A DNA stretch of 54,190 bases from a virus (IMGVR_UViG_3300046718_000581:1-54190); one strand, 5' to 3'. Shown: positions 6,606 to 40,621, counted from the first letter of the stretch. Notes: a model not told the origin generated them from the sequence alone. Translations and numbers: made by a program.

Positions 6606-6627
6606 AGATAGAGAAATTTTCTCATCT
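6606..6627. promoter_or_regulatory. AT-rich near-palindrome between two leftward genes
   Basis: Bases 6606-6609 pair with 6624-6627 and 6611-6615 with 6619-6623 around a short AT loop, with one unpaired A. It is the most AT-rich spot in this block and sits just upstream of the zinc-ribbon gene start at 6597. It could be an operator or part of a promoter; no clear -35/-10 pair is visible. Confidence 0.3.
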
Positions 6628-10362: not shown

Positions 10363-10707
10363 TCAGTCCTCGACCCCGAGGCCGGCCATGCTCGTGCGGC
10401 CGTTGGTCCGCGGTTGCTTCCACGCCTTGGGCAGCGCCCGGTACGTACCCCGGGCCACCTTGCGCACGTAGCTGCCGACGACCAACCGGCGGAGCGCGTT
10501 CTTCACCCAGGAGTCCGCGCGCACGATGGGCCGGATGCTCTGAAAGCAAGCCCGGGCAAGCTCTCGGATGGTGACGTCCTCGTTCATCCGCACCGCCAGC
10601 GCGGCCAGGACCTTGCGCTCGTTCAGCGAAAGCTCATCGCGCGAGATGCGCGCCCGGTGCGTGTGAAGCCAACCGCCTCGCGGTGCTGCCGTTGCTCTGG
10701 TCGTCAT
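10363..10707 (-). CDS. Winged-helix-like DNA-binding protein (114 aa)
   Basis: Residues about 25-90 read as a winged helix: LSLNERKVLAALAVRM, then VTIRELARACF, then a recognition-like helix and a wing (GSYVRKVARGTYRAL). Very basic. Probably a transcriptional regulator or initiator-like protein; it is one of three small DNA-binding candidates that could recognise the operator repeated at 11.6-17.2 kb. Confidence 0.5.
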   Translation of the reverse strand: MTTRATAAPRGGWLHTHRARISRDELSLNERKVLAALAVRMNEDVTIRELARACFQSIRPIVRADSWVKNALRRLVVGSYVRKVARGTYRALPKAWKQPRTNGRTSMAGLGVED

Positions 10708-11331: not shown

Positions 11332-11601
11332 TCAACCGTTGTCCGACATCAAGCGGAACGCAGCTTCGCGGGCCGACCACGACTCGTGCCATTCGCGGGT
11401 CGCGTCCGTGGGCTCCAAGTCGCCCGGGTACACGATCGTGTACGTCGCGTCGCTCAGGTCATTCGCGTTCGTCTGGGTCGAGCGGTCAGCCGCTTCCACA
11501 TGGAACGCGTGCTCTTTGATGAGCAACTCCGCCTCCTCCCCGTCCCTCGCCCCCCACCTCTCGGTCCCCACCAGCTTGAACTTCCCGAACCACGTCATCA
11601 T
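11332..11601 (-). CDS. Small hypothetical protein (89 aa), first gene behind an operator promoter
   Basis: Two consecutive ATG codons (11601, 11598) follow GGGAGG at the right distance. The 40-nt leader from the promoter is purine-rich. The protein is acidic with a beta-rich start (WFGKFKLVGTERWGARDG); function unknown. Confidence 0.6.
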   Translation of the reverse strand: MMTWFGKFKLVGTERWGARDGEEAELLIKEHAFHVEAADRSTQTNANDLSDATYTIVYPGDLEPTDATREWHESWSAREAAFRLMSDNG

Positions 11602-11641: not shown

Positions 11642-11669
11642 AGTATAGCCATTGGCTATGCTTTGTCAA
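11642..11669 (-). promoter_or_regulatory. Operator-bearing promoter P1 (leftward)
   Basis: On the minus strand TTGACA (11664-11669), 16 bases, TATACT (11642-11647). The palindrome TAGCCAATGGCTA spans 11646-11658 and overlaps the -10 box. It drives the genes at 11601 and 11318. The -35 box begins three bases after the stop codon of the metallopeptidase/VWA gene. Confidence 0.85.
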
Positions 11670-11672
11670 GGT

Positions 11673-13070
11673 CTACTTTTCCACCTCGACCTCGACCACG
11701 TCCCCCCACGTGGCCGGCTTCCGGGTGCCCTGCCCGACCAGAACCCAGATCACCTTGACTCCCATCGGAGCGACCGCGGGGGCAGTCCCGTGCCCGTCGG
11801 TCACGAACACGATGATGTCCGGGCGGGGAGTGCTCTTCGCGAGCGCCTCGAACGCGGGCCGGAAATCCGTGCCGCCTCCACCCTTGAGCAGGGCGGCCAT
11901 CTCCTTCCAGTCCCGCACCACCTTGAGCGAGTGGACCCGGGCATCGCAGGCCACGAACGTCACCTTCGCGCCCGCGGCATCCATGATGCCCTTGCCCTCG
12001 CGGAGCGCGACCATCACCTCGGCGTCTCCCATCGAACCGCTCGTGTCGACCACGACCGCGATGTTCGGCTTGGGCGCGTGGAGCGCGGCCATCATCGGCT
12101 TGCCCGCTCCCACACCACAACCCCACTGGCGCCGGCTCAGCTTCTTGTACGTGGTGTCCACCGCACCCGCCCGGTAGGCCATCGCGTTCCGCACTGACCG
12201 GCTCAGCTTGTCCTGCCAGCGCACCTTGGCGGGCTCCAGCGTCTCATCCGCCCAGCGCGCCCACCCACCCGGGACGCTGCCCTGGCCCTTCTGGGCGGCC
12301 TGCTTGACCGCCTCGGCCACCTGCTTGCGGACTCGTTCCACCTCGCCTTCCGACCGACCCTCGGCCCCACCGTCCTGGGGCTCACCCTCGACCCGGTGCC
12401 CGGCGCACGACCCGCAGTGGCCGCCCATCGGGTTGCCCTTGGCTTCGCCACCCTCGCCCTGGCCTTCCCCTTCCCCCTCGCCCTGACCCTCGCCACCCTC
12501 GCCCTGACCTTCGCCCTGGCCGTCTTCCTCGCCACCCTCGCTCTGCTCGTCGCTCTTTTTGGGCTCACCCTTCTGGGGGTCCTTGGGCTGCTCCTCCTTG
12601 GGCTCGCGCAGCTTCGCGTAGTACGCCTCGGCCGAGAGCCCTTCCTCGTAGCCCTTCTGCTGGGGAAGGATGCCCGCGTCATCACCCACGAACAGGTCCG
12701 GGTGCTCGACCGCCAGGTCATCGTTGATCTCGTAGTCGGCGGCCACGTTCCACAAGCGGGCCAGCTTCTGGTCGGTCGCCTTGCCAGCGGAATCGACCAG
12801 GCCGAGCGCCCGGGCGCGGGCCGCATGGGCGCGGAGCACATGGCCCACTTCGTGGACCAGCACACCCGTCAGCTTGGCCTGGGGCCACTTGGCGACCGTC
12901 TCAGGGTCCCACAAGAGGACCATCTTCTCCGTGACGGCCAGCGTCTTGAGACCGGGCGCCTCGCGCGGGATGAGCCCCAACAGGGCGCTCGTGAAGTACG
13001 GATACTTCTTTCTGGCGCCCAACCGGGCGGTCGCCAACTTGTCGCGCGGACTCAGTTTCTCGTAGGACAC
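11673..13070 (-). CDS. DUF2201-type metallopeptidase/VWA protein
   Basis: GTG at 13070 is chosen because GGAGGT lies six bases upstream; this gives 465 residues. Residues about 80-95 hold a zinc-peptidase motif LVHEVGHVLRAH (HExxH). A long Gly/Glu/Gln low-complexity linker (about 200-250) is followed by a Cys-containing segment and a von Willebrand A domain with the metal-binding motif VVDTSGSMG and later GGGGTDFRP and FVTDGHG. DUF2201 proteins pair with MoxR ATPases; here the MoxR gene is 0.6 kb away under the same kind of promoter. Together they probably form a chaperone-like remodelling complex. Confidence 0.82.
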   Translation of the reverse strand: MSYEKLSPRDKLATARLGARKKYPYFTSALLGLIPREAPGLKTLAVTEKMVLLWDPETVAKWPQAKLTGVLVHEVGHVLRAHAARARALGLVDSAGKATDQKLARLWNVAADYEINDDLAVEHPDLFVGDDAGILPQQKGYEEGLSAEAYYAKLREPKEEQPKDPQKGEPKKSDEQSEGGEEDGQGEGQGEGGEGQGEGEGEGQGEGGEAKGNPMGGHCGSCAGHRVEGEPQDGGAEGRSEGEVERVRKQVAEAVKQAAQKGQGSVPGGWARWADETLEPAKVRWQDKLSRSVRNAMAYRAGAVDTTYKKLSRRQWGCGVGAGKPMMAALHAPKPNIAVVVDTSGSMGDAEVMVALREGKGIMDAAGAKVTFVACDARVHSLKVVRDWKEMAALLKGGGGTDFRPAFEALAKSTPRPDIIVFVTDGHGTAPAVAPMGVKVIWVLVGQGTRKPATWGDVVEVEVEK

Positions 13071-13135
13071 AACGTCACCTCCAACCAGTTCACCACCAGC
13101 CCCCCGCCCCACCCTCTCCCCTTCCCTACACAGCT

Positions 13136-13163
13136 AGTATAGCCATTGGCTAGACTTTGTCAA
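13136..13163 (-). promoter_or_regulatory. Operator-bearing promoter P2 (leftward)
   Basis: TTGACA (13158-13163), 16 bases, TATACT (13136-13141) on the minus strand, with the palindrome at 13140-13152. It drives the metallopeptidase/VWA gene through a purine-rich leader. The TGA stop of the upstream 58-residue gene (13160-13162) lies inside the TTGACA. Confidence 0.85.
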
Positions 13164-13336
13164 GAACCTAGAATCGCGTAGAGGTCGTTTCGCAGCGAGG
13201 CGTGAACCAGGAAGGCGCCGGCTTCGTACTCGAAACGATTGCGTTTCGGGAGTGACTTGATCGCCGTCTGCACTTCCAGGGTGGCACCTGTCACACGGAG
13301 CCACTGCCCTTCACACGTCACCCTGGTCTTTTCCAT
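13160..13336 (-). CDS. Small protein (58 aa) in its own promoter cassette
   Basis: ATG at 13336 in the leader context CCAGATGG that is shared with the other leftward genes of the block. The protein is MEKTRVTCEGQWLRVTGATL followed by a basic helix and SLRNDLYAILGS. No family recognised. Own promoter at 13370-13397; its stop codon is embedded in the next -35 box. Confidence 0.6.
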   Translation of the reverse strand: MEKTRVTCEGQWLRVTGATLEVQTAIKSLPKRNRFEYEAGAFLVHASLRNDLYAILGS

Positions 13337-13369
13337 CTGGTCTCTCCCTCTCCCTCTCCCTACACACCA

Positions 13370-13397
13370 AGTATAGCCATTGGCTATGCTTTGTCAA
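13370..13397 (-). promoter_or_regulatory. Operator-bearing promoter P3 (leftward)
   Basis: TTGACA (13392-13397), 16 bases, TATACT (13370-13375) on the minus strand; palindrome 13374-13386, extended to 15 bases at 13373-13387. Drives the 58-residue gene. Together with P4 at 13500 it makes a divergent control region. Confidence 0.85.
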
Positions 13398-13499
13398 CAC
13401 CCTATCTGCAAGTCATTGGAACCATTGGGCTTTGGATTCTAAGCTCCCCCGGCGGCGCCGTGTGGCCCGGTGTGGGACAAGTAGGATGCTGATTTAGTC
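13398..13499. other. Spacer between divergent promoters P3 and P4
   Basis: About 100 bases with no open frame of note and no clear second operator. It contains a GC-rich stretch (GGCGGCGCCG near 13451). I see nothing else in it. Confidence 0.4.
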
Positions 13500-13527
13500 T
13501 TGACACTGTCTTGCCAATGGCTATACT
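13500..13527 (+). promoter_or_regulatory. Operator-bearing promoter P4 (rightward)
   Basis: TTGACA (13500-13505), 16 bases, TATACT (13522-13527). The operator here is TTGCCAATGGCTA (13511-13523), one mismatch from the consensus. Purine-rich leader follows, then a 21-codon frame. Confidence 0.8.
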
Positions 13528-13565
13528 GCTTGTTGTAGGGAAGAGAGCGGGAAGGGAGAGAGAAG

Positions 13566-13631
13566 ATGCTGATCATGTTGGGAGTTCTGGTGTTTGGGGT
13601 CCTGGCCGTGGTTCGCGATTCTAGGGCTTGA
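13566..13631 (+). CDS. 21-residue hydrophobic peptide
   Basis: ATG at 13566 behind the purine leader GGGAGAGAGAAG encodes MLIMLGVLVFGVLAVVRDSR plus Ala and stop: one membrane-spanning helix with a charged end. The TGA (13629-13631) lies inside the TTGACA of the next promoter. It could be a real micro-membrane protein or a leader peptide; the shared cassette layout argues that it is translated. Confidence 0.45.
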   Translation: MLIMLGVLVFGVLAVVRDSRA

Positions 13632-13655
13632 CATTCACTAGATAGTGGCTATACT
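13628..13655 (+). promoter_or_regulatory. Variant promoter P5 in front of the MoxR gene
   Basis: TTGACA (13628-13633), 16 bases, TATACT (13650-13655). The operator position (13639-13651) reads TAGATAGTGGCTA, so the right half-site is intact and the left one is altered in three bases. Regulation of the MoxR gene may therefore be weaker or different from its neighbours. Confidence 0.8.
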
Positions 13656-13702
13656 AGGGCTGTAGTTAGGAAGTTGGGATTCAGGAGAAAAGGAGAGACC
13701 CA

Positions 13703-14833
13703 ATGCGCGACAAGTTGCTTCACGCGGTCATGTTCACCCCCACCCACGAAGGCTGGGGCCTCCCCGCCCTGTTCTGGGGACCCCCGGGAGTTGGCAAGAC
13801 GGCCATCCTGAAGAACTACGCGAAGCGTTGGGGCATGCACTGCGAAGTCCTCAGCCCTGGTGAGCGTGGCGAGGGGGCGTTCGGTGTGGTTCCCGTCCCG
13901 GCCGCGAACGGTAAGTCGCTGACCTACCCGGCGCCGGACTGGGTGGAGAACGTCCCGGTGCGCGGCATCGTCCTGGTGGACGAGATTTCGACCGCGGAAC
14001 CCGCGCTCCAGAAGCCGATGCTCGGACTGGTCCAGGGCAAGGTGATCGGGTCGCACAAGCTGGCGGGCGGCGTCCGGGTCATCGGTGCGGGCAACCCGGT
14101 TGACTGCTCGACCGGTGGGTGGGAACTCGCTCTCCCGGTGCGGAACCGGTTCGCCCACTTGGACTGGGAGGCGCCCAGTGCGGATGACTGGTGCCAGTGG
14201 CTGCTGAGCGGTGCGAACGGTGGGCCGGAAGTGGGCGGCGACGCCCAGGCCGAGGAGGACCGGGTCATGAAGGCGTGGCCGGGACCCTTCGCCAAGGCGA
14301 GTGGCCTGGTGGCCGGGTTCATCAAGCGCCGCCCGGAACTGCTCCACAAGATGCCGGCCGCGGGCGCGAGCGACCTGAGCTTTCCGACCCACCGCTCTTG
14401 GGAGTACGCGGTGCGCGCGCTGGCGACCGCTGAGGTTCACGCCCTGAGTGAGGCGGACGCGGAGACCCTGCTCGTGGGCTTCATCGGACGCGCGACCGCG
14501 GACGAGTTCATCGCTTGGAAGGCGAGCGCGGACCTGCCCGACCCGGTCGCCCTGCTCGATGGCAAGGAGAAGTTCGCGTTCGACACGCGGCGCCTCGACC
14601 GGACCCTGGCGGTCTACTCCGCTTGCGCCGCCCTGGTCTGCCCGAAGACGGCCGAGAAGCGGAAGGAGCGGGCGGAAGCGCTCTGGACCCTGCTCGCGGA
14701 CGCCGCGGGCAAAGCGGTGGACATCGTGATTCCCGCTGCGACCGCGATGCTCAAGGCGGGGCTCAAGGGTGACGCGGCCAAGCCGGTCCTCGCGAAGCTG
14801 GAACCGGTGCTCGCGGCCGCTGCTGGTAAGTGA
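13703..14833 (+). CDS. MoxR-type AAA+ ATPase
   Basis: 376 residues. Walker A GPPGVGKT (26-33), Walker B IVLVDE (89-94), and sensor-type GAGNP follow in order; the lid region is longer than usual. MoxR ATPases work with VWA-domain proteins to remodel protein or metal complexes. The metallopeptidase/VWA partner lies just to the left on the other strand. RBS GGAG at 13691-13694. Codon use matches the phage core genes, so this is not an obvious recent import. Confidence 0.85.
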   Translation: MRDKLLHAVMFTPTHEGWGLPALFWGPPGVGKTAILKNYAKRWGMHCEVLSPGERGEGAFGVVPVPAANGKSLTYPAPDWVENVPVRGIVLVDEISTAEPALQKPMLGLVQGKVIGSHKLAGGVRVIGAGNPVDCSTGGWELALPVRNRFAHLDWEAPSADDWCQWLLSGANGGPEVGGDAQAEEDRVMKAWPGPFAKASGLVAGFIKRRPELLHKMPAAGASDLSFPTHRSWEYAVRALATAEVHALSEADAETLLVGFIGRATADEFIAWKASADLPDPVALLDGKEKFAFDTRRLDRTLAVYSACAALVCPKTAEKRKERAEALWTLLADAAGKAVDIVIPAATAMLKAGLKGDAAKPVLAKLEPVLAAAAGK

Positions 14834-14858
14834 AGGGCTTGACAAAGTCTAGACTCCT

Positions 14859-14877
14859 CCCCACCTTAGAGGTGGGG
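14859..14877 (+). terminator. 8-bp perfect hairpin between MoxR and alarmone hydrolase genes
   Basis: CCCCACCT (14859-14866) and AGGTGGGG (14870-14877) pair around TAG. No T tract follows on the plus strand. The hairpin ends about ten bases before the ribosome binding site GGAGGT of the next gene (14884-14889), so it could equally serve as an intercistronic stem or translational control element. A TTGACA at 14839-14844 just upstream has no good -10 box. Confidence 0.35.
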
Positions 14878-14895
14878 GGGAAAGGAGGTGGGGAG

Positions 14896-15474
14896 ATGGA
14901 CCGAATTGGAACTGCGCTCGCGCTGGCCACGAAGCTGCACGAGGGGCAGATACGGACGGGAGCGGACGGCGTGCCCTACCCGTACATCGCCCACCCGATG
15001 GCGGTCGCTGCCCTGGTGCTGGAGCATGGTGGGACGGGGGCGGAGGTGGCGGCCGCCCTGCTCCACGACGGCATCGAGGACGGTCCGCCGGGGTCGGCGG
15101 AAGCCATCGGCCACATGCTCGGCGCGGAGGTGCTCGCGATTGTTCGGGGGTGCAGCGATTCCGAGAAGGGCGGTGTGGTCCTGCCCTGGAAGGCGCGGAA
15201 GATTGCCTACCTCGGCCACCTGGAGAACGCTCCCCCCAACGTCAAGCTGGTGAGCTGCGCGGACAAGTTCCACAACGCGAGCGCCATCGTGAGCGACCTC
15301 AAGGTGCTCGGCCCTCCGTTCTTCAAGGCGTTCGCCGGTGGGCAGGACGGGGTGCTCTGGTACTACGAGGAGCTGGTCAAGGTGTTCAACGCGGGGGGAG
15401 CCCCCGCTGCGCTCGCACGGAAGCTAGCTGGTGCGGTTGCAGAGATGAAGAAGCTGGCGCTAGGATGTGCCTAA
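14896..15474 (+). CDS. SpoT-like HD hydrolase (small alarmone hydrolase)
   Basis: 192 residues with the (p)ppGpp-hydrolase pattern: HEGQIR (15-20), PYIAHP (29-34), LLHDGIED (56-62), then SDSEKGG, WKARKIAYL and LVSCADKFHNA (119-128). His33, His57, Asp58 and Asp123 would hold manganese, and Glu61/Asp62 would be the catalytic pair. The length fits stand-alone hydrolases that remove the 3' diphosphate of (p)ppGpp or act as antitoxins of toxic alarmone synthetases. The next recognisable gene but one, on the opposite strand, is a RelA-type synthetase. Confidence 0.85.
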   Translation: MDRIGTALALATKLHEGQIRTGADGVPYPYIAHPMAVAALVLEHGGTGAEVAAALLHDGIEDGPPGSAEAIGHMLGAEVLAIVRGCSDSEKGGVVLPWKARKIAYLGHLENAPPNVKLVSCADKFHNASAIVSDLKVLGPPFFKAFAGGQDGVLWYYEELVKVFNAGGAPAALARKLAGAVAEMKKLALGCA

Positions 15475-15692
15475 TGGCCTCGATGCTCGATCTCATCATG
15501 GAAGCGAAAGCGAAGATGACCCCGAAGACCGGGTTCAACGTGGTCGGCGTCGACGACTTCGAGATGCCTGGGGACGAGCTGTTCCTGGTGGGGCACTACG
15601 AGTCCAAGGAGGACGCCGACCACGCGCTGGCGCAAGCCAAGGCCGCCTCGCCCAAGACGGCCTACTACATCTACGACCCGTCGACGACCTAG
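15474..15692 (+). CDS. Small hypothetical protein (72 aa)
   Basis: ATG shares a base with the hydrolase stop. The sequence looks like a compact alpha/beta domain with a C-terminal YYIYDPSTT. Its stop overlaps the convergent RelA-type gene by four bases. No family recognised; a helper of the hydrolase is possible. Confidence 0.5.
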   Translation: MASMLDLIMEAKAKMTPKTGFNVVGVDDFEMPGDELFLVGHYESKEDADHALAQAKAASPKTAYYIYDPSTT

Positions 15693-16609
15693 ATTTTGAC
15701 GCAGCCGAAGACGACGCGGACTGCCTGCGGGCACTCGGGCTTGATGGACTGCTTGCCCTGGTCCTTGGCGTAGATGTGCTCGGACATCGCGTGCGAGTAG
15801 TGGTCGATGACGGCCTTCGACTGCGGGTCCTTGAGGGTGGACTTCTGCAATTCGTTCTGCGGCTTGTACGCGTCGTGCGCCCAGTTGGCGAACGCGTCCT
15901 GCCCGGGCGTGCGTACCTGGATTTCCTTGGCGACGCCGTGGTCTTCCACGATGAGGTGGTGTGACCGGTAGTCGCCCTTCGGCTTGCTGATGTAGTCGGA
16001 CTCCTCGATGACCTTGTAGTTCGCTCTGATCTTGTCGGCCGTCGCCTTGACCTCGTCGATGTTCTTCACGACTGCGCGCATGCCGGTCGCATCCATGAGA
16101 CCCGTCGCGTCCTTGTAGAAGTGCGAGCCGTCGCTGTTGCGCGCGCGGTCCAGCTTCTCCATGGTGGACGAGAGTTCCTTGACGCGCGCTTCGATTTTGG
16201 CGTCGGGCGGCGCCAGCGAGGTGAGCTTCGCCTTCGCCTCTGCGAATCCAGCGTTGTGCCTGCCGAGGAACTCGCGGGCGATGTCGGCGTGCTCGCGTGC
16301 CGTCTTGCCAGGCGGGAGTCGGTCTTGGAGCGGCGACGTCGGCTTGAACACGCCCTCGGCGCCGGCAGGGTGCTTGCCGAGTGAGCCGCCATGCTCGGTG
16401 GGTCCTGGCCGGCGGTACGAGCCGGGGCCTGGCTGGTTGGGCGATGGCTCCAGGCGCCCGGGGTGCGGCTTGGCTACGCCATCTTGCGCGGCGCGGACAG
16501 CAGCCTCGGCGCCGTAGATTTTCTCGCCGGCGGCACTGACGTAGTACCTGCCTCCCCGTGGCCCGGTCGCCCAGTTCTTGAGCCCAGCACCCGTCGGCTT
16601 GGTCGGCAT
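15689..16609 (-). CDS. RelA/SpoT-type nucleotidyltransferase with N-terminal phage tag
   Basis: 306 residues. The C-terminal half holds the alarmone synthetase motifs: LMDATGMRAVV (Asp173), ISKPKGDYRSHH (Tyr214, His217), EIQVRT (229-234) and FANWAHDAYK (240-249). The first 32 residues contain GPRGGRYYVSAAGEKIYG, the same tag as at the C-termini of three small head-region proteins. A Pro/Gly-rich linker (50-90) joins the two. Toxic small alarmone synthetases of phages either make ppGpp/ppApp or pyrophosphorylate tRNA ends. The tag suggests that this one is carried in the virion; that is inference. Confidence 0.8.
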   Translation of the reverse strand: MPTKPTGAGLKNWATGPRGGRYYVSAAGEKIYGAEAAVRAAQDGVAKPHPGRLEPSPNQPGPGSYRRPGPTEHGGSLGKHPAGAEGVFKPTSPLQDRLPPGKTAREHADIAREFLGRHNAGFAEAKAKLTSLAPPDAKIEARVKELSSTMEKLDRARNSDGSHFYKDATGLMDATGMRAVVKNIDEVKATADKIRANYKVIEESDYISKPKGDYRSHHLIVEDHGVAKEIQVRTPGQDAFANWAHDAYKPQNELQKSTLKDPQSKAVIDHYSHAMSEHIYAKDQGKQSIKPECPQAVRVVFGCVKI

Positions 16610-16618
16610 GCGCCGATG

Positions 16619-16810
16619 CTAGCGGGTTGCGCGCACAGCATCAAGGCACTGCATCCGTATCCACGCCGAGACGGAGAGCCCGACGCGAGACGCCGCCGTC
16701 TCGAACGCCGCGCGCTCCTCGTCGGTCAGCTTAATCATGAACGGCACAGTCCGGTTGTTGTGGGGCTGCTTCGCCGGCTTGGTCATCGCGTCCCTGCCTT
16801 TCGGTTCCAT
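16619..16810 (-). CDS. Ribbon-helix-helix (Arc/MetJ-type) regulator
   Basis: 63 residues from ATG 16810 or 55 from ATG 16786. Pattern TVPFMIKLTDEERAAF (beta strand, helix A) then SRVGLSVSAWIRMQCLDAV (helix B) is that of an RHH repressor. A perfect palindrome (16825-16837) lies directly upstream, as expected for autoregulation. It starts ten bases from the end of the RelA-type gene, so the two could be one transcript. Confidence 0.72.
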   Translation of the reverse strand: MEPKGRDAMTKPAKQPHNNRTVPFMIKLTDEERAAFETAASRVGLSVSAWIRMQCLDAVRATR

Positions 16811-16824
16811 AGGTCCTAACCCCC

Positions 16825-16853
16825 AAGGTTAAACCTTATCTATACGTTGTCAA
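16825..16853 (-). promoter_or_regulatory. Operator palindrome and -35 box in front of the RHH gene
   Basis: AAGGTT-A-AACCTT (16825-16837) is a perfect 6+1+6 palindrome, distinct from TAGCCAATGGCTA. On the minus strand TTGACA lies at 16848-16853; a good -10 is not obvious, but the palindrome covers the region where it would be. Probable autoregulatory site. Confidence 0.55.
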
Positions 16854-16972
16854 GTCTTTAAATTTCCGGTGCGGCTGTTCGCGCCCTTGTCAAGCGGCAT
16901 CGCTTATCCCCACTTCCACCTACATCTCCCCTGCCGGGGGGGCTAGAAAATGCACGACCGCTAGATAGGGGA

Positions 16973-17000
16973 TTGACATTGTCTAGCCAATGGCTATACT
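16973..17000 (+). promoter_or_regulatory. Operator-bearing promoter P6 (rightward)
   Basis: TTGACA (16973-16978), 16 bases, TATACT (16995-17000), palindrome TAGCCAATGGCTA at 16984-16996. Followed by GTGGGTTGTAAGG and a purine-rich leader. Drives the 34-residue gene. The stretch 16854-16972 upstream has no gene and no clear motif beyond a GC-rich run near 16930. Confidence 0.85.
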
Positions 17001-17030
17001 GTGGGTTGTAAGGGGAAGGGAGGTGGGCAG

Positions 17031-17135
17031 ATGGGGCGCTTGGTGAAGTGGTTCCACCAGATGGTCGAGTCGCTCATGGGCGAGACCGTTGACGCGGAAC
17101 GTCAAGAGGCGCTGCTCGCTGAGCTTGGGTATTGA
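17031..17135 (+). CDS. 34-residue peptide in its own promoter cassette
   Basis: ATG at 17031 after GGGAGG (17019-17024). Encodes an amphipathic helix starting MGRLVKWFHQMVESLMGET and ending LLAELGY. Its TGA (17133-17135) lies inside the TTGACA of the next promoter. Size and cassette layout match the 21- and 58-residue genes. Confidence 0.5.
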   Translation: MGRLVKWFHQMVESLMGETVDAERQEALLAELGY

Positions 17136-17159
17136 CATCGGATAGCCAATGGCTATACT
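17132..17159 (+). promoter_or_regulatory. Operator-bearing promoter P7 (rightward)
   Basis: TTGACA (17132-17137), 16 bases, TATACT (17154-17159). Palindrome 17143-17155, extended to 15 bases at 17142-17156. Leader begins AGGTGTGTAGG, nearly identical to those of P1 and P3. Drives the gene at 17200. Confidence 0.87.
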
Positions 17160-17199: not shown

Positions 17200-18036
17200 A
17201 TGGGCGCGAACCTGATTGTGACTGAGGCTTCCACGGCAGGAGCGGTTGTGTACTGGACGCTCCAGGGTGCGATTGACCACGCGAAGCTGGTGGCCGCGTG
17301 GAAGGACGCGGGGCTGGACCCGGACGACTTGGTCGCCCCCCCGAGCGCGGTGATGGCACTCCAGCGTGCGGTGCGCGAGTTCGCGAGCAAGCGCGTCCTG
17401 GCCCGCTCTATCACCCAGGGTCACTGGGCTCTGGTGGATGAGCAGGTGGTCGGAGACAAGCTGGTCTACACGGACCTGCTCAACGCGAAGCTGGACACCG
17501 CGACGGAGACCCTGACCCTGACCCCGGACCATGGTGGTGTGCGCGCCGCGTACGATGTCCACCGCACGGTGGTCGAGACCCGCGATGTGAGCAACTGGCT
17601 CGCGGGGGTCTGCGAGGAACTCGGTGGTGTGACGCTCCGCAATACGGGTGGCATCTACTTCCTGCCCCCGGCCGGGCTGGAGAAGTTCCGCAAGATCATC
17701 GCGGTCCTGGCCCTGGTGAGCGCCCACACGATTCACCGGATTCCGGCCATGAAGTGCGAGGAGGCCGTGGCCGCGGTCCTCAAGGCGGTCGAGGACGAAG
17801 CGAAGGCCGCGGCGGAGGCCCTGGACGCGGACCTGGCCGACACGGAACTCGGGCACAAGGCCCTGACCGGGCGAGCGAGCAAGGCCGAGAAGGTCAAGGC
17901 GAAGTTGATCGCGTACGAGGAGTTGCTCGGGACCGAGTTGACGGTCCTCAAGGACAAGCTGGAAGACCTCCGCGCGAACCTGGCCGCGGCCGCCCTGGTG
18001 GCCGAGGCCGCTGCCGAGGAGGCGAAGGCGGCCTGA
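17200..18036 (+). CDS. Hypothetical coiled-coil protein (278 aa), possible DUF6744-like
   Basis: The N-terminal 170 residues are alpha/beta with GGVTLRNTGGIYFLPPAG near 150-167; the C-terminal 100 residues are an Ala/Glu/Lys-rich coiled coil. Proteins of this layout accompany MoxR/VWA genes in some phages and plasmids, but I cannot fix the family from sequence alone. Its expression from a P7-type promoter links it to the MoxR and metallopeptidase/VWA genes. Confidence 0.6.
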   Translation: MGANLIVTEASTAGAVVYWTLQGAIDHAKLVAAWKDAGLDPDDLVAPPSAVMALQRAVREFASKRVLARSITQGHWALVDEQVVGDKLVYTDLLNAKLDTATETLTLTPDHGGVRAAYDVHRTVVETRDVSNWLAGVCEELGGVTLRNTGGIYFLPPAGLEKFRKIIAVLALVSAHTIHRIPAMKCEEAVAAVLKAVEDEAKAAAEALDADLADTELGHKALTGRASKAEKVKAKLIAYEELLGTELTVLKDKLEDLRANLAAAALVAEAAAEEAKAA

Positions 18037-18928: not shown

Positions 18929-19323
18929 TGGGCCGGCCGATGCGCAAGTACACACGGCAGGAGAAGGCGGGCATCCGGGCAGACCGCGCCGAGGGCATGT
19001 CGGTGCGCGATCTGGAGATCAAGTACAAGACGAGCCGCGGTACGCTCATCGCGACGGGGCTCGTGGAACCGGCGGGCCGGCGCCGGCGCAGGAAGGGCTC
19101 GGTCGAGGACGTCAACGCGGCGCTCGACCGCGCAGGCAAGCCGGACAAGTCGGTGCCCCACATGCTGACGTACATCGGCGGGGGTGAGGAACGGACGGAG
19201 GAACACGAGTCGTTGGACCGCGCGCTCGCAGCATGCGCCGGCTACCAACTGGCGGGGGCTGGGTCGCTCCGCTTGTGGCGAGAGGTGAAGTTCAAGGTGA
19301 CCGCAGTGGTCGAGGAGGAATGA
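18928..19323 (+). CDS. Helix-turn-helix protein (131 aa)
   Basis: ATG at 18928. Residues about 10-45 read as an HTH with RADRAEGMSVRDLEIKYKTS and a following helix. Basic linker RRRRRKGS, then a unique C-terminal domain. Likely DNA-binding regulator or terminase-like adaptor; the HTH is the only supported part. Confidence 0.5.
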   Translation: MGRPMRKYTRQEKAGIRADRAEGMSVRDLEIKYKTSRGTLIATGLVEPAGRRRRRKGSVEDVNAALDRAGKPDKSVPHMLTYIGGGEERTEEHESLDRALAACAGYQLAGAGSLRLWREVKFKVTAVVEEE

Positions 19324-34026: not shown

Positions 34027-35657
34027 AGGTTCGGTCCATCACGCTGCGAGAGTTCATGAGCCACATCGCGTCGAAGGTCGAGTTGCCCGACCACGGCGTG
34101 GTGCTGGTGACCGGCCCCAACGGGGCTGGCAAGTCCTCGCTCATCGAGGCGGTCGCGGTCGCGTGCTGGGGCAAGTCGCTCCGCGGCACGAGCCCCTGGC
34201 GCCCGGGTGTCGACGGCACGGTGACCGTGGAGGCGGACACCTCGTTGGTCGTGGACCGCGGCCGGCTGAACGACCGTGGCATCTTGTGGTGGTCGCTCCA
34301 CGGCCACGCCGAGAAGTTCGAGTCCGCCACCAAGGCGCAGGCCGCCCTCGAACACGTCGTCGGCACCTTGGACCTCTGGCGTCGCACGCACGTGTTCTCA
34401 TCCGCCGACGCGGCGCACTTCACGATGGCGACCGACGGCGAGCGCAAGCGGTTGCTGGAGGCGATGCTGGGCCTCGACCGCTTCGACGACGCGTTGGACC
34501 AGTGCCGCGCGGACTTGAAGAAGGCGGTCTCCGAGCACCACAACTTGGAGAACGCCGTCGAGTTGCTGCTGCTGTCGCAGGCTGCCCAGCATCGCCGCCG
34601 GGATGAGGCCCGCACCCATCTCAACGAGTTGCACGAGCCCGGCGACGTCGCGGCGCTACAGGCCGACCTGCTGAATCTGGAACGGCTCATCCGTGTGTAC
34701 GACGGCGACTACGCAGGGCTGCGCAAGCGCCTGCGCGAGGCCGACGCCGCGGCCGCCCGCGCGGATGCAGACGCCGAGCACGCGAAGTGCGCCCTTGACG
34801 GGTTCAAGGGCGGCAAGTGTCCGACCTGCCACGAGACGCTGCCGCGCCTGCGGTACAAGGACTTGCAGGACCGCGCCCGGGTGGCGGAGGTGTCGGCCAT
34901 CAAGGTTCGGCAGACGACCAGCCAGGCGCGCGCCGACGTCGAGTCCGACGCCCGGTCGTTGGAGGAAGAGCAGGCCGCGCTCGCCCGGAAGCGCCACGAT
35001 GTCGCCGCGCAGGTGTCGGCGGCCCGCGCCATGGAGACGACGCGCAAGAGCCTGCAAGCGGTGCTCGACTCCGCGGACAAGGACCTGGACCACATCGCCA
35101 AGCAGTTGGCGTCCGGTGACCTGTCCCGCATGGAGGCCGCCAAGACGGTCGGTGAGTTGGAGGCGGTCGAGCGGGTGCTGGGGTTGAAGGGCGTGCGCGC
35201 CCACGTCCTCAGCCGTACCCTGGGTGGGCTCCAGTTCTGCGCCAACGCGTGGCTGGCGCGCATCGCAGGCCCTGACCTGCGGCTCAAGCTCCAGGCGTAC
35301 AGCGAGAAGAAGAGCGGCGGTGTGAGCGACGCCATCGGCCTGGAGGTGGAGGGCGCGGGCGGCGGTCATGGGTACCGCGCCGCCTCGGGTGGCGAGCGCC
35401 GCCGCATCGACGTCGCCCTGCTCATGGCGCTGGCCGAGGTAGCCCAGGCCGCGCATGGACAGTCGTCGGGCACGACGCTGTTCTTCGACGAGGTGTTCGA
35501 TGCGCTCGACCCGGCGGGGGTCGACGCGGTCGCCCGGGCGCTCGACGACCTCGGGCAAACCCGCACCGTCGTGGTCATTTCGCATTCCGACGACCTCGCG
35601 GAGCGGCTGACGCCCGCGCTCCGGTTGCGCGTCACGCCCGGAGGCGTTCTCACGTGA
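34023..35657 (+). CDS. sbcC: SbcC/Rad50-like ATPase
   Basis: GTG at 34023 overlapping the SbcD stop gives 544 residues. Walker A GPNGAGKSS near residue 31, a coiled-coil middle with a zinc hook CPTC (about residue 265), ABC signature SGGERRRIDVALLMAL and Walker B TTLFFDEVFDALD. Shorter coiled coil than bacterial SbcC, as in phage gp46. Partner of the upstream nuclease. Confidence 0.87.
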   Translation: MKVRSITLREFMSHIASKVELPDHGVVLVTGPNGAGKSSLIEAVAVACWGKSLRGTSPWRPGVDGTVTVEADTSLVVDRGRLNDRGILWWSLHGHAEKFESATKAQAALEHVVGTLDLWRRTHVFSSADAAHFTMATDGERKRLLEAMLGLDRFDDALDQCRADLKKAVSEHHNLENAVELLLLSQAAQHRRRDEARTHLNELHEPGDVAALQADLLNLERLIRVYDGDYAGLRKRLREADAAAARADADAEHAKCALDGFKGGKCPTCHETLPRLRYKDLQDRARVAEVSAIKVRQTTSQARADVESDARSLEEEQAALARKRHDVAAQVSAARAMETTRKSLQAVLDSADKDLDHIAKQLASGDLSRMEAAKTVGELEAVERVLGLKGVRAHVLSRTLGGLQFCANAWLARIAGPDLRLKLQAYSEKKSGGVSDAIGLEVEGAGGGHGYRAASGGERRRIDVALLMALAEVAQAAHGQSSGTTLFFDEVFDALDPAGVDAVARALDDLGQTRTVVVISHSDDLAERLTPALRLRVTPGGVLT

Positions 35658-36565
35658 AGATCTACCTCGCCGTCGCCACGATGGAAGGCGTGCCCAAGGT
35701 GCTCGCGCACCCGCGCCCGTCGCAGATACTCCTGTCGTATCACTACTTCGGCCGCGCCGACCTCGGGCAGTTGTTCCAGGGGCGCAAGGTGGACGTGTTC
35801 GCGGACTCCGGCGCGTTCTCCGCCGCGGCCAATGGCGGCACCGTCGTGCTGGAGGACTACCTCGCCTGGGTCAAGCGGTGGGAGTCGTTGCTCACCGTGG
35901 CGTGCGCACCGGACGTCATCGGCGATGCCGAGGCGACCGCGCGCGACACCGAGACGATGCTGGCTCTCGGGCTCAAGGTGCCGGTGTTGCCCGTCTTCCA
36001 TGTTGGCGAGCCGTGGGAGTTCTTGCAGCACTGGGCCAAGCGGGTGCCGTACCTCGCGCTCGGCGGTCTCGTGCCCTACCTCCTGCGCAGCCGCACCCTG
36101 CTCTCGCACTGGCTGGACAAGGCGTTCACCTTCCTGACGGACCAGCAGGTTCACGCGTTCGGTTGCACGACCGCGTCGTTGCTCCAGCGGTTCCCGTTCT
36201 ACTCGGCGGACTCCTCGACGTGGAGCACGGGCCGGCGGTACGCCAAGATCTTCCTCTTCGATGGCGCCCGCGTTCGCGAGATAAACCTCCGGTCGCGTCA
36301 GTCGGTGCTGGAGAACCGCGCGCTGCTCCGGTCGTATGGCGTGGCTGACCTTCGTGATGTCGCAATGCGGACCTCGTCAATCCAACTTCAAGCAGACCTA
36401 GGCGTAGAGTCATGCTACCGTCTTGCAGATTGGATTGAGGAGCGCCGGAATGGTCGAGCTGCACGAGCCCTCGTTGGTCCCGCTGGGCAAGCTACAGAAG
36501 GCGCCGTACAACCCCCGGACGATGGCGCCGGCCGAGATGGAGCGGCTGAAGGCATCGATTCGTGA
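35654..36565 (+). CDS. DpdA-like transglycosylase (7-deazaguanine DNA modification candidate)
   Basis: GTG at 35654 overlaps the SbcC stop. TIM-barrel TGT-like features: VFADSGAFSAAANGG (catalytic-type Asp in DSGAF), ACAPDVIGD, VLPVFHVGEPW, LALGGLVPYLL, HAFGCTT and YSADSSTWS. Phage DpdA proteins insert 7-deazaguanine bases into DNA. The last 35 residues overlap the next gene and look non-native. GTP cyclohydrolase I (first step of the precursor pathway) lies 1.9 kb downstream; the other pathway enzymes are not in this window. Confidence 0.65.
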   Translation: MKIYLAVATMEGVPKVLAHPRPSQILLSYHYFGRADLGQLFQGRKVDVFADSGAFSAAANGGTVVLEDYLAWVKRWESLLTVACAPDVIGDAEATARDTETMLALGLKVPVLPVFHVGEPWEFLQHWAKRVPYLALGGLVPYLLRSRTLLSHWLDKAFTFLTDQQVHAFGCTTASLLQRFPFYSADSSTWSTGRRYAKIFLFDGARVREINLRSRQSVLENRALLRSYGVADLRDVAMRTSSIQLQADLGVESCYRLADWIEERRNGRAARALVGPAGQATEGAVQPPDDGAGRDGAAEGIDS

Positions 36566-37106
36566 GTTCGGCTTCGCCGAGCCCGTCATCGCGCGCCGCG
36601 AAGACTTCCTGGTGGTCGGCGGCCACCAGCGCATCCAGGCACTGACGGAGATACTGACCGAGGACGGGGCGCCCGACGCGGACGCCGTGACCGTCCCGAC
36701 CATCCTCTTGACCGGCGTCGACGACGCGCGCGCCAAGGCCCTGAACCTCGCGCTCAACCGCATCTCGGGTGAGTGGGACTACGAGAAGCTGGGCGTGCTG
36801 CTCGCCGAGTTCGAGGCGACCGACCCCTCGCTCATCGGCCTGACGGGCTTCACCGAGGCTGAGGCGGCCGACATCTTGAACGTGGCTGGTGATGATACGT
36901 TCCAGCCGCAGCCCTCGTCCGAGCCCCCGCCGGACGTCGACGACCTGCTCGCCCAGGACCGCCGGCGCTTCCGGTTCTTCGTGGAGACGGACGAGGGCGC
37001 GGCCGCAGTACGCGAGGCCCTGGCCACGTTCGACCCGACCGACGCGTCCCGCTCTCTGGTCCTCATGGCGCAGGCCATTCTCGATAGCGCCAAGGGTCCA
37101 CAGTGA
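36450..37106 (+). CDS. ParB/Srx-like domain protein (218 aa)
   Basis: ATG at 36450, overlapping the previous frame by 116 bases, is needed to include the start of the ParB domain. LVPLGKLQKAPYNPRTM then LKASIREFGFAEPVIAR, LVVGGHQRIQAL and ALNLALNRISGEWD are the ParB N-terminal motifs. In phages such proteins accompany DNA methyltransferase or modification genes. No methyltransferase domain is fused here. Confidence 0.78.
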   Translation: MVELHEPSLVPLGKLQKAPYNPRTMAPAEMERLKASIREFGFAEPVIARREDFLVVGGHQRIQALTEILTEDGAPDADAVTVPTILLTGVDDARAKALNLALNRISGEWDYEKLGVLLAEFEATDPSLIGLTGFTEAEAADILNVAGDDTFQPQPSSEPPPDVDDLLAQDRRRFRFFVETDEGAAAVREALATFDPTDASRSLVLMAQAILDSAKGPQ

Positions 37107-37606
37107 GCCGCCTCCACGTGGCAGCCGTCGTCGGCACCAAGGTGGGAGGCACCAAGTGGGCGCCCGACGTGGCCGAGATGGCGTTCACGTCCGGCTTCGC
37201 CGCGGCGCGCGCCGGCTTCGTGGTGCTGACCGGCGGCCTGTCGGGCGTCATGACCGAGGCCGCACGCGGCGCCCGCGCCGCCGGCGGGCTGACGGTCGGC
37301 ATCCTGCCCGGCACCGCGCATGAGGACGGCAACGAGCACCTCTCGCTCGTGCTGCCGACCGGCATCGGGCTGGCGCGCAACGTCCTGGTGGCGCTGGCGT
37401 GCGACGTGATGATTGCCGTGCCCGGTGGTCTGGGCACGTTGCAGGAGATGAGCTACGCGCTGGAGTACAAGCGCCCTGTGTTCTCGTGGGACTCGTGGGA
37501 CCTGCCCGGCGTCGACCATGCGAACGTCCGCCTTGATTCGACGCGCGTCGAGATGTGGCTCCGCAGCCACGCCGAGCGTCTGGGAGTGATGACCAATGGA
37601 GAGTGA
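37103..37606 (+). CDS. SLOG/LOG-family Rossmann protein
   Basis: GTG at 37103; 167 residues. VVLTGGLSGVMTEAARGA and VPGGLGTLQEMSYAL (the PGGxGTxxE motif) place it in the LOG/TIGR00725 family, whose members include nucleotide 5'-phosphoribohydrolases. Likely acts on a nucleotide. Sits directly before folE with an overlap of 11 bases. Confidence 0.78.
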   Translation: MSRLHVAAVVGTKVGGTKWAPDVAEMAFTSGFAAARAGFVVLTGGLSGVMTEAARGARAAGGLTVGILPGTAHEDGNEHLSLVLPTGIGLARNVLVALACDVMIAVPGGLGTLQEMSYALEYKRPVFSWDSWDLPGVDHANVRLDSTRVEMWLRSHAERLGVMTNGE

Positions 37607-38213
37607 GAAGAAGGTCGGTTCGCAGCTTCCCCCCAAGCCGCTGATGCTCGACCGGCTGGAGGACGCCGTGCGCCAGATGCTGCTGGCGCTCGGGCAGGGC
37701 GACAAGGCGGAGGTGATGCAGAACTCTCCGCGCCGCGTCGCCGAGATGTACGCGGACATCATCAACGCGCCGTGGTGCGACATCGAGATTCCGTGGAAGA
37801 CGTTCCCCAACCCGGGCGTCAACGACCTCGTGATGGTGACCGACTGCCACTACGTGTCGATGTGCGAGCATCACCTGGCGCCCGCGCTGGGCGTCGCCCA
37901 CTTCGCGTACGTCCCCGACAAGTTCATCACGGGCTACTCGAAAGTGAAGAAGGCGCTCAACTACCTCGCGCGCCAGCCGCAGTTGAACGAGCGCCTGCTG
38001 TTCGACGCGCTGAACGCGTGCGAGCAGGTGCTCCAGCCCAAGGGCGTCGGGCTCGTGCTCCACTCGATTCATATGTGCCTCATCTGCAAGTCGAACGCGC
38101 CGGCGCAAGAGATCGTGACCGTCCAAGACTTCCGCGGCTGCCTCAAGGAGGACCCGTACCGCCGCGACTTCCTGGCGACTGCCTACGGCAAGCGCCCGGT
38201 CTTCGGCGCGTGA
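37596..38213 (+). CDS. folE: GTP cyclohydrolase I
   Basis: 205 residues, full length. Zinc ligands Cys90 and His93 (MCEHHLAP) and Cys161 (HMC) are spaced exactly as in the bacterial enzyme; VPDKFITGYSKVKKAL and ARQPQLNERL are conserved. Converts GTP to 7,8-dihydroneopterin triphosphate, the entry to folate and to 7-deazaguanine (preQ0) synthesis. After Cys161 the usual RGV segment is changed to LICKS. In phages folE usually signals DNA modification, which fits the DpdA-like gene nearby. Confidence 0.92.
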   Translation: MESEKKVGSQLPPKPLMLDRLEDAVRQMLLALGQGDKAEVMQNSPRRVAEMYADIINAPWCDIEIPWKTFPNPGVNDLVMVTDCHYVSMCEHHLAPALGVAHFAYVPDKFITGYSKVKKALNYLARQPQLNERLLFDALNACEQVLQPKGVGLVLHSIHMCLICKSNAPAQEIVTVQDFRGCLKEDPYRRDFLATAYGKRPVFGA

Positions 38214-39295: not shown

Positions 39296-39714
39296 GCTTC
39301 CGCCCCGAGTTCATGGTCTGCGTCGACGCCGTCGTCCTCGACATCGGCGGTCCGACCACTCGCGTCCTCGCCGTCCGCCGCGAACGCGAACCCTTCGCCG
39401 GCGCCTGGGTGCTCCCCGGCGGCCGCGTCGAACCCGACGAACACCCCGATGACGCCGTCGCTCGCGAGCTACTGGAGGAGACCGGCCTCCACGTCCCACT
39501 CCGCGCCTTCAGCTTCTACGGCAGCCCGCTCCGCGACCCGCGCGGTCCGACCATCTCGCTCGCCTACATGGGCAGTGTCTCCCAGGTGCCGCCCGCGCGA
39601 CATGGCGAGGGTCTGACCGGCCTGGCCTGGCTGTCCGTTCAGGACGTAGAACTAGGTTTCGACCACGCACAGATTCTGCGAGATGCGCTACGCTGGGGCC
39701 AGTGGCAGCGTTGA
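39292..39714 (+). CDS. NUDIX hydrolase
   Basis: GTG at 39292 overlaps the DUF3050 stop; 140 residues. The NUDIX box GGRVEPDEHPDDAVARELLE continued by ETG fits Gx5Ex7REUxEExGU completely. Hydrolyses a nucleoside diphosphate linked to another group. Last gene of the nucleotide/modification cluster, so it may clean up or supply a modified nucleotide. Confidence 0.88.
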   Translation: MSFRPEFMVCVDAVVLDIGGPTTRVLAVRREREPFAGAWVLPGGRVEPDEHPDDAVARELLEETGLHVPLRAFSFYGSPLRDPRGPTISLAYMGSVSQVPPARHGEGLTGLAWLSVQDVELGFDHAQILRDALRWGQWQR

Positions 39715-39726
39715 ACGCGCCCAACG

Positions 39727-39783
39727 CTGTGGATACGTTGTCAGTATCGGGGCTGCGTCCAGTTGCCCCCACGTTATCCACAG
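39727..39783. promoter_or_regulatory. Inverted pair of DnaA-box-like sites
   Basis: CTGTGGATA (39727-39735) and TATCCACAG (39775-39783) are exact reverse complements; the right one contains the perfect DnaA box TTATCCACA (39774-39782), the left one is one base off. Between them lies GATAC...GTATC (39732-39748) and the 12-mer ACGTTGTCAGTA (39735-39746). It is the only gap between the modification cluster and the packaging genes. It could be an origin, a packaging or a control site. Confidence 0.45.
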
Positions 39784-39817
39784 TAATTTTGCAGCCCCAC
39801 TAGAGGAACAACGCGTC

Positions 39818-40621
39818 ATGAGCACCCCATGGGGACCCAAGCACACCGGCGTCGGCCTACCCGAGTACGAGAAGGCCGTCGAAGCGTACCGCGCGCACCC
39901 GGGCGACCACATCTACGCGAAGCACGCCACCGGCCTGACACACGCCGTTTGCATCCGCCTGTGGGACAAGGGCATGCCCTTCAAGAACCTCCGTCCCATC
40001 AAGGAAGTGCTGGAGGAGGAGCAGCGTCTGGCGCGCATCCTCCGCGCAGAGGCGCTCGCCGATGAGCGCCTGGCCGAGGCCGACGCCAAGCTATCGGCCG
40101 CCGACCGCGCCGCCATCGACCGGATGGCGCAAGCCGACCTGGACGTCAAGGCCCGCCTGAAGGAGTTGCACGAGAAGGCCAAGATCGACGCCGTCCAGAC
40201 CATGGCCGAAGAAGCCACCATCGTCTCGGCCGCCCGCAAGGTCGCCCTGTCCCTTCATGGACTCGCCGCCCAGGTGCTCCAGCAAGCCAACATCCGCGCC
40301 TTCGCCGCCGCCTACACCAAGGCCCTCGCCGACCAAGACCTCTCACCACGCGAAGCCCACCAGCTCCTACGCACCCTCGGCGCCTTCGGCCGCGACCTCG
40401 CACAACTCGACCTCTCGGTCCTCGACGCCGAACGCAAGCGCCTCGGCCAGCCCACCGACATCGTCAAGGTGGAAGTCGAGCACATGGATAGAGAAGACGC
40501 CCTCCGCGTCATCGAGGAGGCCGCCAGCGCCGCCGCCCTACTGCGCGATGACGAGGACGACGACACTCCCGCACCCAATGGCTCCAGCACCAACGGGTCA
40601 GGCAACGGCCTCGCCCACTAG
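39818..40621 (+). CDS. Putative small terminase or DNA-binding head protein (267 aa)
   Basis: ATG at 39818 with GAGGAA upstream. N-terminal region (TGLTHAVCIRLWDKGMPF) could hold an HTH; a long charged coiled coil (60-130) and an acidic, disordered C-terminus follow. Position upstream of the large terminase and the domain order fit a small terminase, but no motif is decisive. Confidence 0.5.
   Translation: MSTPWGPKHTGVGLPEYEKAVEAYRAHPGDHIYAKHATGLTHAVCIRLWDKGMPFKNLRPIKEVLEEEQRLARILRAEALADERLAEADAKLSAADRAAIDRMAQADLDVKARLKELHEKAKIDAVQTMAEEATIVSAARKVALSLHGLAAQVLQQANIRAFAAAYTKALADQDLSPREAHQLLRTLGAFGRDLAQLDLSVLDAERKRLGQPTDIVKVEVEHMDREDALRVIEEAASAAALLRDDEDDDTPAPNGSSTNGSGNGLAH

Follow-up and report, generated by a model that had tools for sequence, protein, structure and literature searches.

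A 13-bp operator-like palindrome in a compact set of promoters of a soil bacterial virus

In the Bacillus phage SPbeta, a 15-bp motif called SPBRE occurs in about ten promoter regions and is bound by the master repressor MrpR (PMC10516654). Mycobacteriophage L5 has more than 20 operators and stoperators, which are asymmetric 13-bp sites bound by a monomer and are also located outside promoters (PMC9283540). Here we describe a 13-bp palindrome, TAGCCAATGGCTA, in a group of promoters between 11.6 and 17.2 kb of the virus record IMGVR_UViG_3300046718_000581. This 54,190-bp record, hereafter called the window, is from an incomplete soil bacterial virus, and the promoters surround the genes of a MoxR-type AAA+ ATPase, a protein with metallopeptidase and VWA domains, and a DUF6744 protein.

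The arrangement follows the same logic as SPBRE and MrpR, in which one short motif is placed in several phage promoters. However, MrpR is a recombinase-like repressor of a prophage, whereas the window has seven sites in 5.5 kb, and scans of a subset of the proteins of this incomplete virus revealed no MrpR-like or other recombinase-like repressor. The L5 sites also have 13 bp and include early promoters, but the window site is symmetric (a perfect palindrome at five positions) and has no copy with up to two mismatches outside promoters, which distinguishes it from sites of the L5 type. The start-associated sequences of cluster K phages are asymmetric 13-bp repeats that are likewise common to a subset of phage genes (PMC3203893). 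They are located at translation starts, whereas the window motif lies inside the promoter, with the −10 hexamers ending 30–65 nt upstream of the start codons. In lambdoid phages, the CI/Cro operators are clustered between divergent repressor genes; the window instead has single sites distributed over 5.5 kb, and the flanking genes are not recognised repressors. The conserved inverted repeats of phage phiC31 are palindromes at several early promoters with one known phage repressor, but they are longer and more numerous than the sites in the window.

Seven promoters and their palindrome

The preliminary description of this DNA reported seven promoters that consist of TTGACA, exactly 16 bases, and TATACT. 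All of them are present, with −35 hexamers starting at 11669(−), 13163(−), 13397(−), 13500(+), 13628(+), 16973(+), and 17132(+). A first-order Markov model of the window predicts 0.00013 such sequences by chance, and none appeared in 300 simulations. Each of the seven sites has the features of a sigma70 promoter, namely TTGACA and TATAAT-like hexamers separated by 15–19 bp in front of a gene.

The palindrome covers spacer positions 6–16 and the first two bases of the −10 hexamer. As had been described, it is perfect in five promoters and has a single mismatch in a sixth. On the minus strand, the promoter at 11642–11669 (palindrome at 11646–11658) drives a leftward operon starting at 11601, with 40 nt from the −10 hexamer to the start codon; the promoter at 13136–13163 (13140–13152) drives the VWA/metallopeptidase gene, and that at 13370–13397 (13374–13386) drives the gene of a 58-aa protein (13336–13160). 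On the plus strand, the promoter at 13500–13527, which contains the one-mismatch variant TTGCCAATGGCTA (13511–13523), drives the gene of a 21-aa hydrophobic peptide (13566–13631). Further to the right, the promoters at 16973–17000 (16984–16996) and 17132–17159 (17143–17155) have perfect palindromes and drive the genes of a 34-aa peptide (17031–17135) and the DUF6744 protein, respectively. The remaining promoter (13628–13655, plus strand), which drives the MoxR gene, holds the divergent site TAGATAGTGGCTA at 13639–13651, which deviates from TAGCCAATGGCTA at three of the 13 positions. This site had been regarded as a right half-site; GTGGCTA is indeed kept beside the −10 hexamer, but CACTA-GA-TAGTG, an imperfect inverted repeat distinct from TAGCCAATGGCTA, describes it better.

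No further copy of TAGCCAATGGCTA with up to two mismatches was found in the window, or in the contig G001, which overlaps the window from approximately position 23108 and adds 9.8 kb (64 kb together). With three mismatches, there are 27 matches in all (shuffle mean, 4), and the additional matches are at chance level. One operator-like motif is thus present in several promoters and not elsewhere, and the regulon is limited to 11.6–17.2 kb within the available sequence. A palindrome at 6611–6623 has a similar geometry, but it is located just past the end of a leftward gene and was not counted. A relic of an eighth promoter is present at 14839–14855 (plus strand), upstream of an HD-domain gene. 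It reads TTGACAAAGTCTAG-ACT, in which TTGACAAAGTCTAG is identical to the 13163(−) promoter and is followed by a deletion of the remaining palindrome and most of the −10 hexamer. A 14-mer of the relic occurs only here and in the 13163(−) promoter, with zero occurrences expected.

Conservation among the promoter copies comprises the hexamers, the palindrome, and a short TGTAGG-like leader; the likeness of the leaders noted before is real, but only partial. The five nucleotides after the −35 hexamer differ (AAGCA, AAGTC, AAGCA, CTGTC, TTCAC, TTGTC, and TCGGA), as do the upstream flanks. Two promoters, 11669(−) and 13397(−), are near-duplicates and share a longer palindrome, AAGCATAGCCAATGGCTATACTT (one mismatch in 23). 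The left arm of the palindrome (TAGCC) is intact in five promoters, and a sixth carries it with a single mismatch. Recognition by sigma70 requires nothing at the left arm, and the −10 hexamer accounts for part of the right arm. The conservation of an arm that sigma70 does not need, together with the variable five nucleotides and flanks, argues for selection on the promoter and palindrome rather than one recent duplication.

From this arrangement, we consider it reasonably probable that the seven sites act as strong early promoters of the host-sigma70 type in a tailed virus that encodes replication genes of its own, and that TAGCCAATGGCTA serves as the operator for a DNA-binding protein that acts as a homodimer and is probably virus-encoded. 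When bound, this protein would cover the spacer as well as the start of the −10 hexamer (its first two bases) and shut out RNA polymerase. Six units would then be switched off together, namely the VWA/metallopeptidase gene, the DUF6744 gene, the genes of three small proteins, and the leftward operon, while MoxR would be a weak or differently controlled seventh unit. Given the lytic appearance of the virus, the units would most likely be expressed early and then shut off by feedback, and lysogenic repression is possible.

Palindromes and promoter motifs in other genomes

The literature searched did not yield the TAGCCAATGGCTA 13-mer as a described operator, in agreement with the novelty claimed for the site in the preliminary description. 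The claim that the arrangement is also new was too strong, because the SPBRE/MrpR system and the L5 operators are known (PMC10516654, PMC9283540), and the scans described here also contradict it. A scan of a species-wide collection for TTGAC-N6/7-TAGCCANTGGCTATA identified four bacterial contigs of different phyla, with one promoter site each and no common neighbouring gene; one of the sites precedes a ribbon-helix-helix (RHH)-like gene. A looser scan identified 18 viral contigs. Among the viral matches with a gap of 6 or 7 bases, 11 of 12 end in TAnnnT and are promoter-like, and a control palindrome, TACGCANTGCGTA, gave seven such matches, six of which end in TAnnnT. Because the control is comparable, palindromes inside promoters are common, and we do not claim a conserved regulator for TAGCCAATGGCTA. 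This result also weakens the view of TAGCCAATGGCTA as a special operator with wide conservation.

The core TAGCC-N3-GGCTA is present in unrelated phages beside Xre or RHH genes. It is paired approximately 25 bp apart in L087, L089, and L093, and 18 bp apart in L096. In L089 the core is located between divergent Xre genes, whereas it precedes RHH-like genes in L084, L101, and L102, among which only L102 has Pfam support for the RHH assignment, and this support is weak. This placement of TAGCCANTGGCTA before RHH genes and between Xre genes is consistent with an operator role. Putative operators of Xre or RHH autorepressors, for example around L089, L084, and L102, likewise combine the TAGCCANTGGCTA core with a sigma70 promoter that contains or adjoins it, but such sites are single or paired at the regulator's own gene, whereas those in the window serve a multi-gene set. 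A second, unrelated phage, G031 (L103), has two promoters of the same geometry. In a small unrelated viral contig (L032, 3240–3300), TTGACT-N17-TATACT with TATAGCCAATGGCTATA precedes a 59-aa gene, which is followed by an HTH (helix-turn-helix)-like gene.

The window shows no DNA similarity to the phage collection, and searches with its MoxR or VWA protein alone identified no close relatives in viral contigs. Soil viral contigs do contain relatives of its DNA polymerase (27–43% identity), and in five of these contigs the VWA, MoxR, and DUF6744 genes are present as well. Alignment-based searches gave 27 viral DUF6744 loci and 20 MoxR loci. The DUF6744, VWA/metallopeptidase, and MoxR genes recur together in more than 20 related viral contigs, and most loci with enough flanking sequence hold all three. 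We compared the 110-nt stretches upstream of the three genes in 30 viruses, with a threshold of 20 identical bases out of 24. This identity was reached by 4 of 82 promoter pairs within a virus versus none of 2,382 pairs between viruses. The four qualifying viruses are that of the window, L147, L143, and L133.

The motifs differ among these viruses. L147 has TTGCAA-N16-TATGAT with ATCATGCGTATGAT (ATCAT-GCGT-ATGAT), and L143 has TTGTCT-N16-TAnnnT with CCAGTCTGG in three places; both likewise have a 16-base spacer, with an inverted repeat at or adjoining the −10 hexamer. In L128, TGATATCAGGACT is common to two of the three genes (18/24). Separate comparisons showed that exact copies of TGCTACGAATGCA in the contigs G005 and G003 are confined to the promoters of MoxR and DUF6744, and that AAAGAGAAGAAAGC-like spacers are present in two to three promoters of G013. 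In G012, there are at least 16 near-identical cassettes, including two that precede DUF6744 and the next gene. The shared motifs are not all palindromes, since those of G012, G013, and L133 are direct or purine-rich repeats. Overall, approximately eight viruses have a common motif in the promoters of this gene region, and each lineage has a different one. By the 24-base test, no shared motif is seen in most of the 30 viruses, in part because the three genes may form one operon.

Some of these contigs have further features. In G012 (L063, 1970–12150), approximately 14 near-identical promoter-leader cassettes with the direct repeat TGCACAAC are located before small genes. L133 (1937–11340) has at least nine cassettes with GTTGCRYTGGTTGCG, some of which are followed by the perfect palindrome GACTCTGGCAGAGTC, before the VWA, DUF6744, and other genes. 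The MoxR gene of G013 (L070, 33676–36051) is one long frame of approximately 790–870 aa, in which both ends resemble MoxR and the middle holds an insert that is possibly an intein.

Candidate regulators and alternative explanations

The preliminary description is partly supported. Joint control through an operator that overlaps the −10 hexamer is the best reading, but several observations weigh against repression by one protein. None of the three proteins named there as candidate regulators (winged-helix, RHH, and HTH) could be linked to the TAGCCAATGGCTA site. The cluster of TAGCCAATGGCTA sites is absent from the relatives searched at the contig scale and from the promoter listing of further loci. 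The MoxR promoter, which belongs to a core member of the module, retains only a half-site. Neither a repressor nor an integrase was seen among the scanned proteins of this incomplete virus, many of which match nothing. Moreover, the palindrome may serve activation or be an intrinsic promoter feature instead of mediating repression.

The candidate winged-helix DNA-binding protein (10363–10707, minus strand; 114 aa) has an HTH_24 match with an E-value of 0.068, which is below the cut-off. It is the leading, though weak, candidate because its gene is located in the operon driven by the 11669(−) promoter of the regulon. The RHH protein (16619–16810, minus strand; likely start at 16786) is NikA-like (Pfam E-value of 7.9e-8). 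Its gene has a promoter of its own, TTGACA-N16-TAACCT (16825–16853, minus strand), with a different palindrome, AAGGTTTAACCTT, at 16825–16837, which is unique in the window and is probably a separate autoregulatory operator of the RHH gene. The RHH protein is therefore a poor candidate for the regulator that binds TAGCCAATGGCTA. AlphaFold2 (AF2) models built from single sequences for the winged-helix protein and the HTH protein (18940–19323) had predicted local distance difference test (pLDDT) scores of 46 and 44, respectively, and were too poor to be used. No convincing candidate for a QxNxR-type RHH protein was found in the 64 kb, and no regulator is common to the window virus and the unrelated phages with the same operator among their shared proteins.

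A role in lysogeny and immunity appears rather unlikely. Here, a temperate or plasmid-like virus would silence its early promoters with one phage repressor, and the presence of one motif at several promoters follows the logic of MrpR-SPBRE and L5 (PMC10516654, PMC9283540). The TAGCC-N3-GGCTA cores between divergent Xre genes or in pairs approximately 25 bp apart in other phages also favour this explanation. However, no integrase or CI-type repressor was recognised among the scanned subset of window proteins, no operator cluster adjoins a repressor gene, and the polymerase, helicase, SSB, and SbcCD encoded by the virus are typical of lytic phages.

It is improbable that the operator is read by a host protein, such that the virus borrows a host regulon and its early genes follow the state of the host. 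The promoters with TAGCCANTGGCTATA in bacterial contigs of different phyla, one of them before an RHH-like gene, would fit this explanation, but only four such contigs exist in the species-wide collection, with a single site each and no common neighbour.

Similarly improbable is an explanation that dispenses with a repressor, in which a duplicated promoter cassette is kept by recombination and the palindrome is incidental or aids promoter melting. The 11669(−) and 13397(−) promoters are nearly identical from the −35 hexamer into the leader, and the relic at 14839 is a deleted copy. In contrast, the other copies are conserved only in the hexamers, palindrome, and short leader, the left arm is not needed by sigma70, and the shared promoter motifs found elsewhere in the group differ from that of the window and include several inverted repeats.

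Hairpin promoters (5-bp stem and 3-nt loop) for an N4-type virion RNA polymerase are very improbable. TAGCC-AAT-GGCTA could extrude as such a hairpin, and MoxR/VWA-like pairs are present in N4-like phages. However, this explanation would make the consensus sigma70 hexamers and their 16-bp spacing coincidental, the hairpin is missing from the seventh site, and no giant RNA polymerase gene was seen in the 64 kb.

Neighbouring genes and the MoxR-VWA-DUF6744 module

The VWA/metallopeptidase protein (11673–13070, minus strand; 465 aa) has a GTG start at 13070 with a good ribosome-binding site, and consists of DUF2201_N metallopeptidase and DUF2201 VWA domains (Pfam E-values of 3.9e-33 and 2.3e-22, respectively, scanned from a start at 13112). 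The neighbouring and divergently transcribed MoxR gene (13703–14833, plus strand) encodes 376 aa (Pfam AAA E-value of 1.2e-4; 33–47% identity to relatives). The DUF6744 protein (17200–18036, plus strand; 278 aa; Pfam E-value of 1.8e-9) is the coiled-coil protein of the preliminary description, and we found no mention of DUF6744 with phage in the literature searched. The leftward operon from 11601 encodes proteins of 89 and 180 aa, the winged-helix protein, a MazG-like protein, and further genes. The virus also encodes DNA polymerase, helicase, SbcCD, terminase, portal, and SSB.

Between the two promoter groups, the gene of an HD_4 hydrolase (14896–15474, plus strand) faces that of a RelA/SpoT-domain protein (15689–16609, minus strand), and the RHH gene is upstream of the latter. 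The two are possibly an alarmone synthetase/hydrolase pair, perhaps toxin-antitoxin like. At 35654–38213 (plus strand), Tgt-like (queuine tRNA-ribosyltransferase), weakly DprA-like, and GTP cyclohydrolase genes are arranged in tandem, two of the three with relatives in G013, and this row possibly functions in 7-deazaguanine DNA modification. A protein at 39683–40621 (plus strand) is conserved in four relatives and has a weak match to a CII-like activator (PHROG 101, E-value of 0.004).

Group 2.2 jumbo phages encode a MoxR-vWA(metallopeptidase) chaperone pair, for which a role in virion assembly has been proposed (PMC7824862). The window encodes the same protein pair, with the VWA domain fused to a metallopeptidase domain. 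Unlike in that proposal, the pair in the window is placed with early replication genes and DUF6744 under shared promoters, and its position among putatively early, co-regulated genes is a point against assuming the same assembly role.

The promoter-operator design is an ordinary, known style of phage control, and the operator sequence is new. The replacement of the shared motif at the same genes from lineage to lineage is a less ordinary, group-wide result. We tentatively suggest that the DUF6744-VWA-MoxR module may be kept under a shared virus-encoded operator that is replaced between lineages, like the immunity specificities of temperate phages. If so, each virus would carry a matching, fast-evolving DNA-binding protein, and the module would need strict control. 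The window offers a compact, probably early regulon whose operator is known at single-base resolution, in viruses related to no studied member that we found, and the change of operator at the same three genes provides a natural series for examining how regulators and their sites change jointly. The MoxR-VWA pair of phages, which is poorly understood, and DUF6744 are also connected here as genes with probably joint and early expression, a point relevant to the virion-assembly proposal for the pair.

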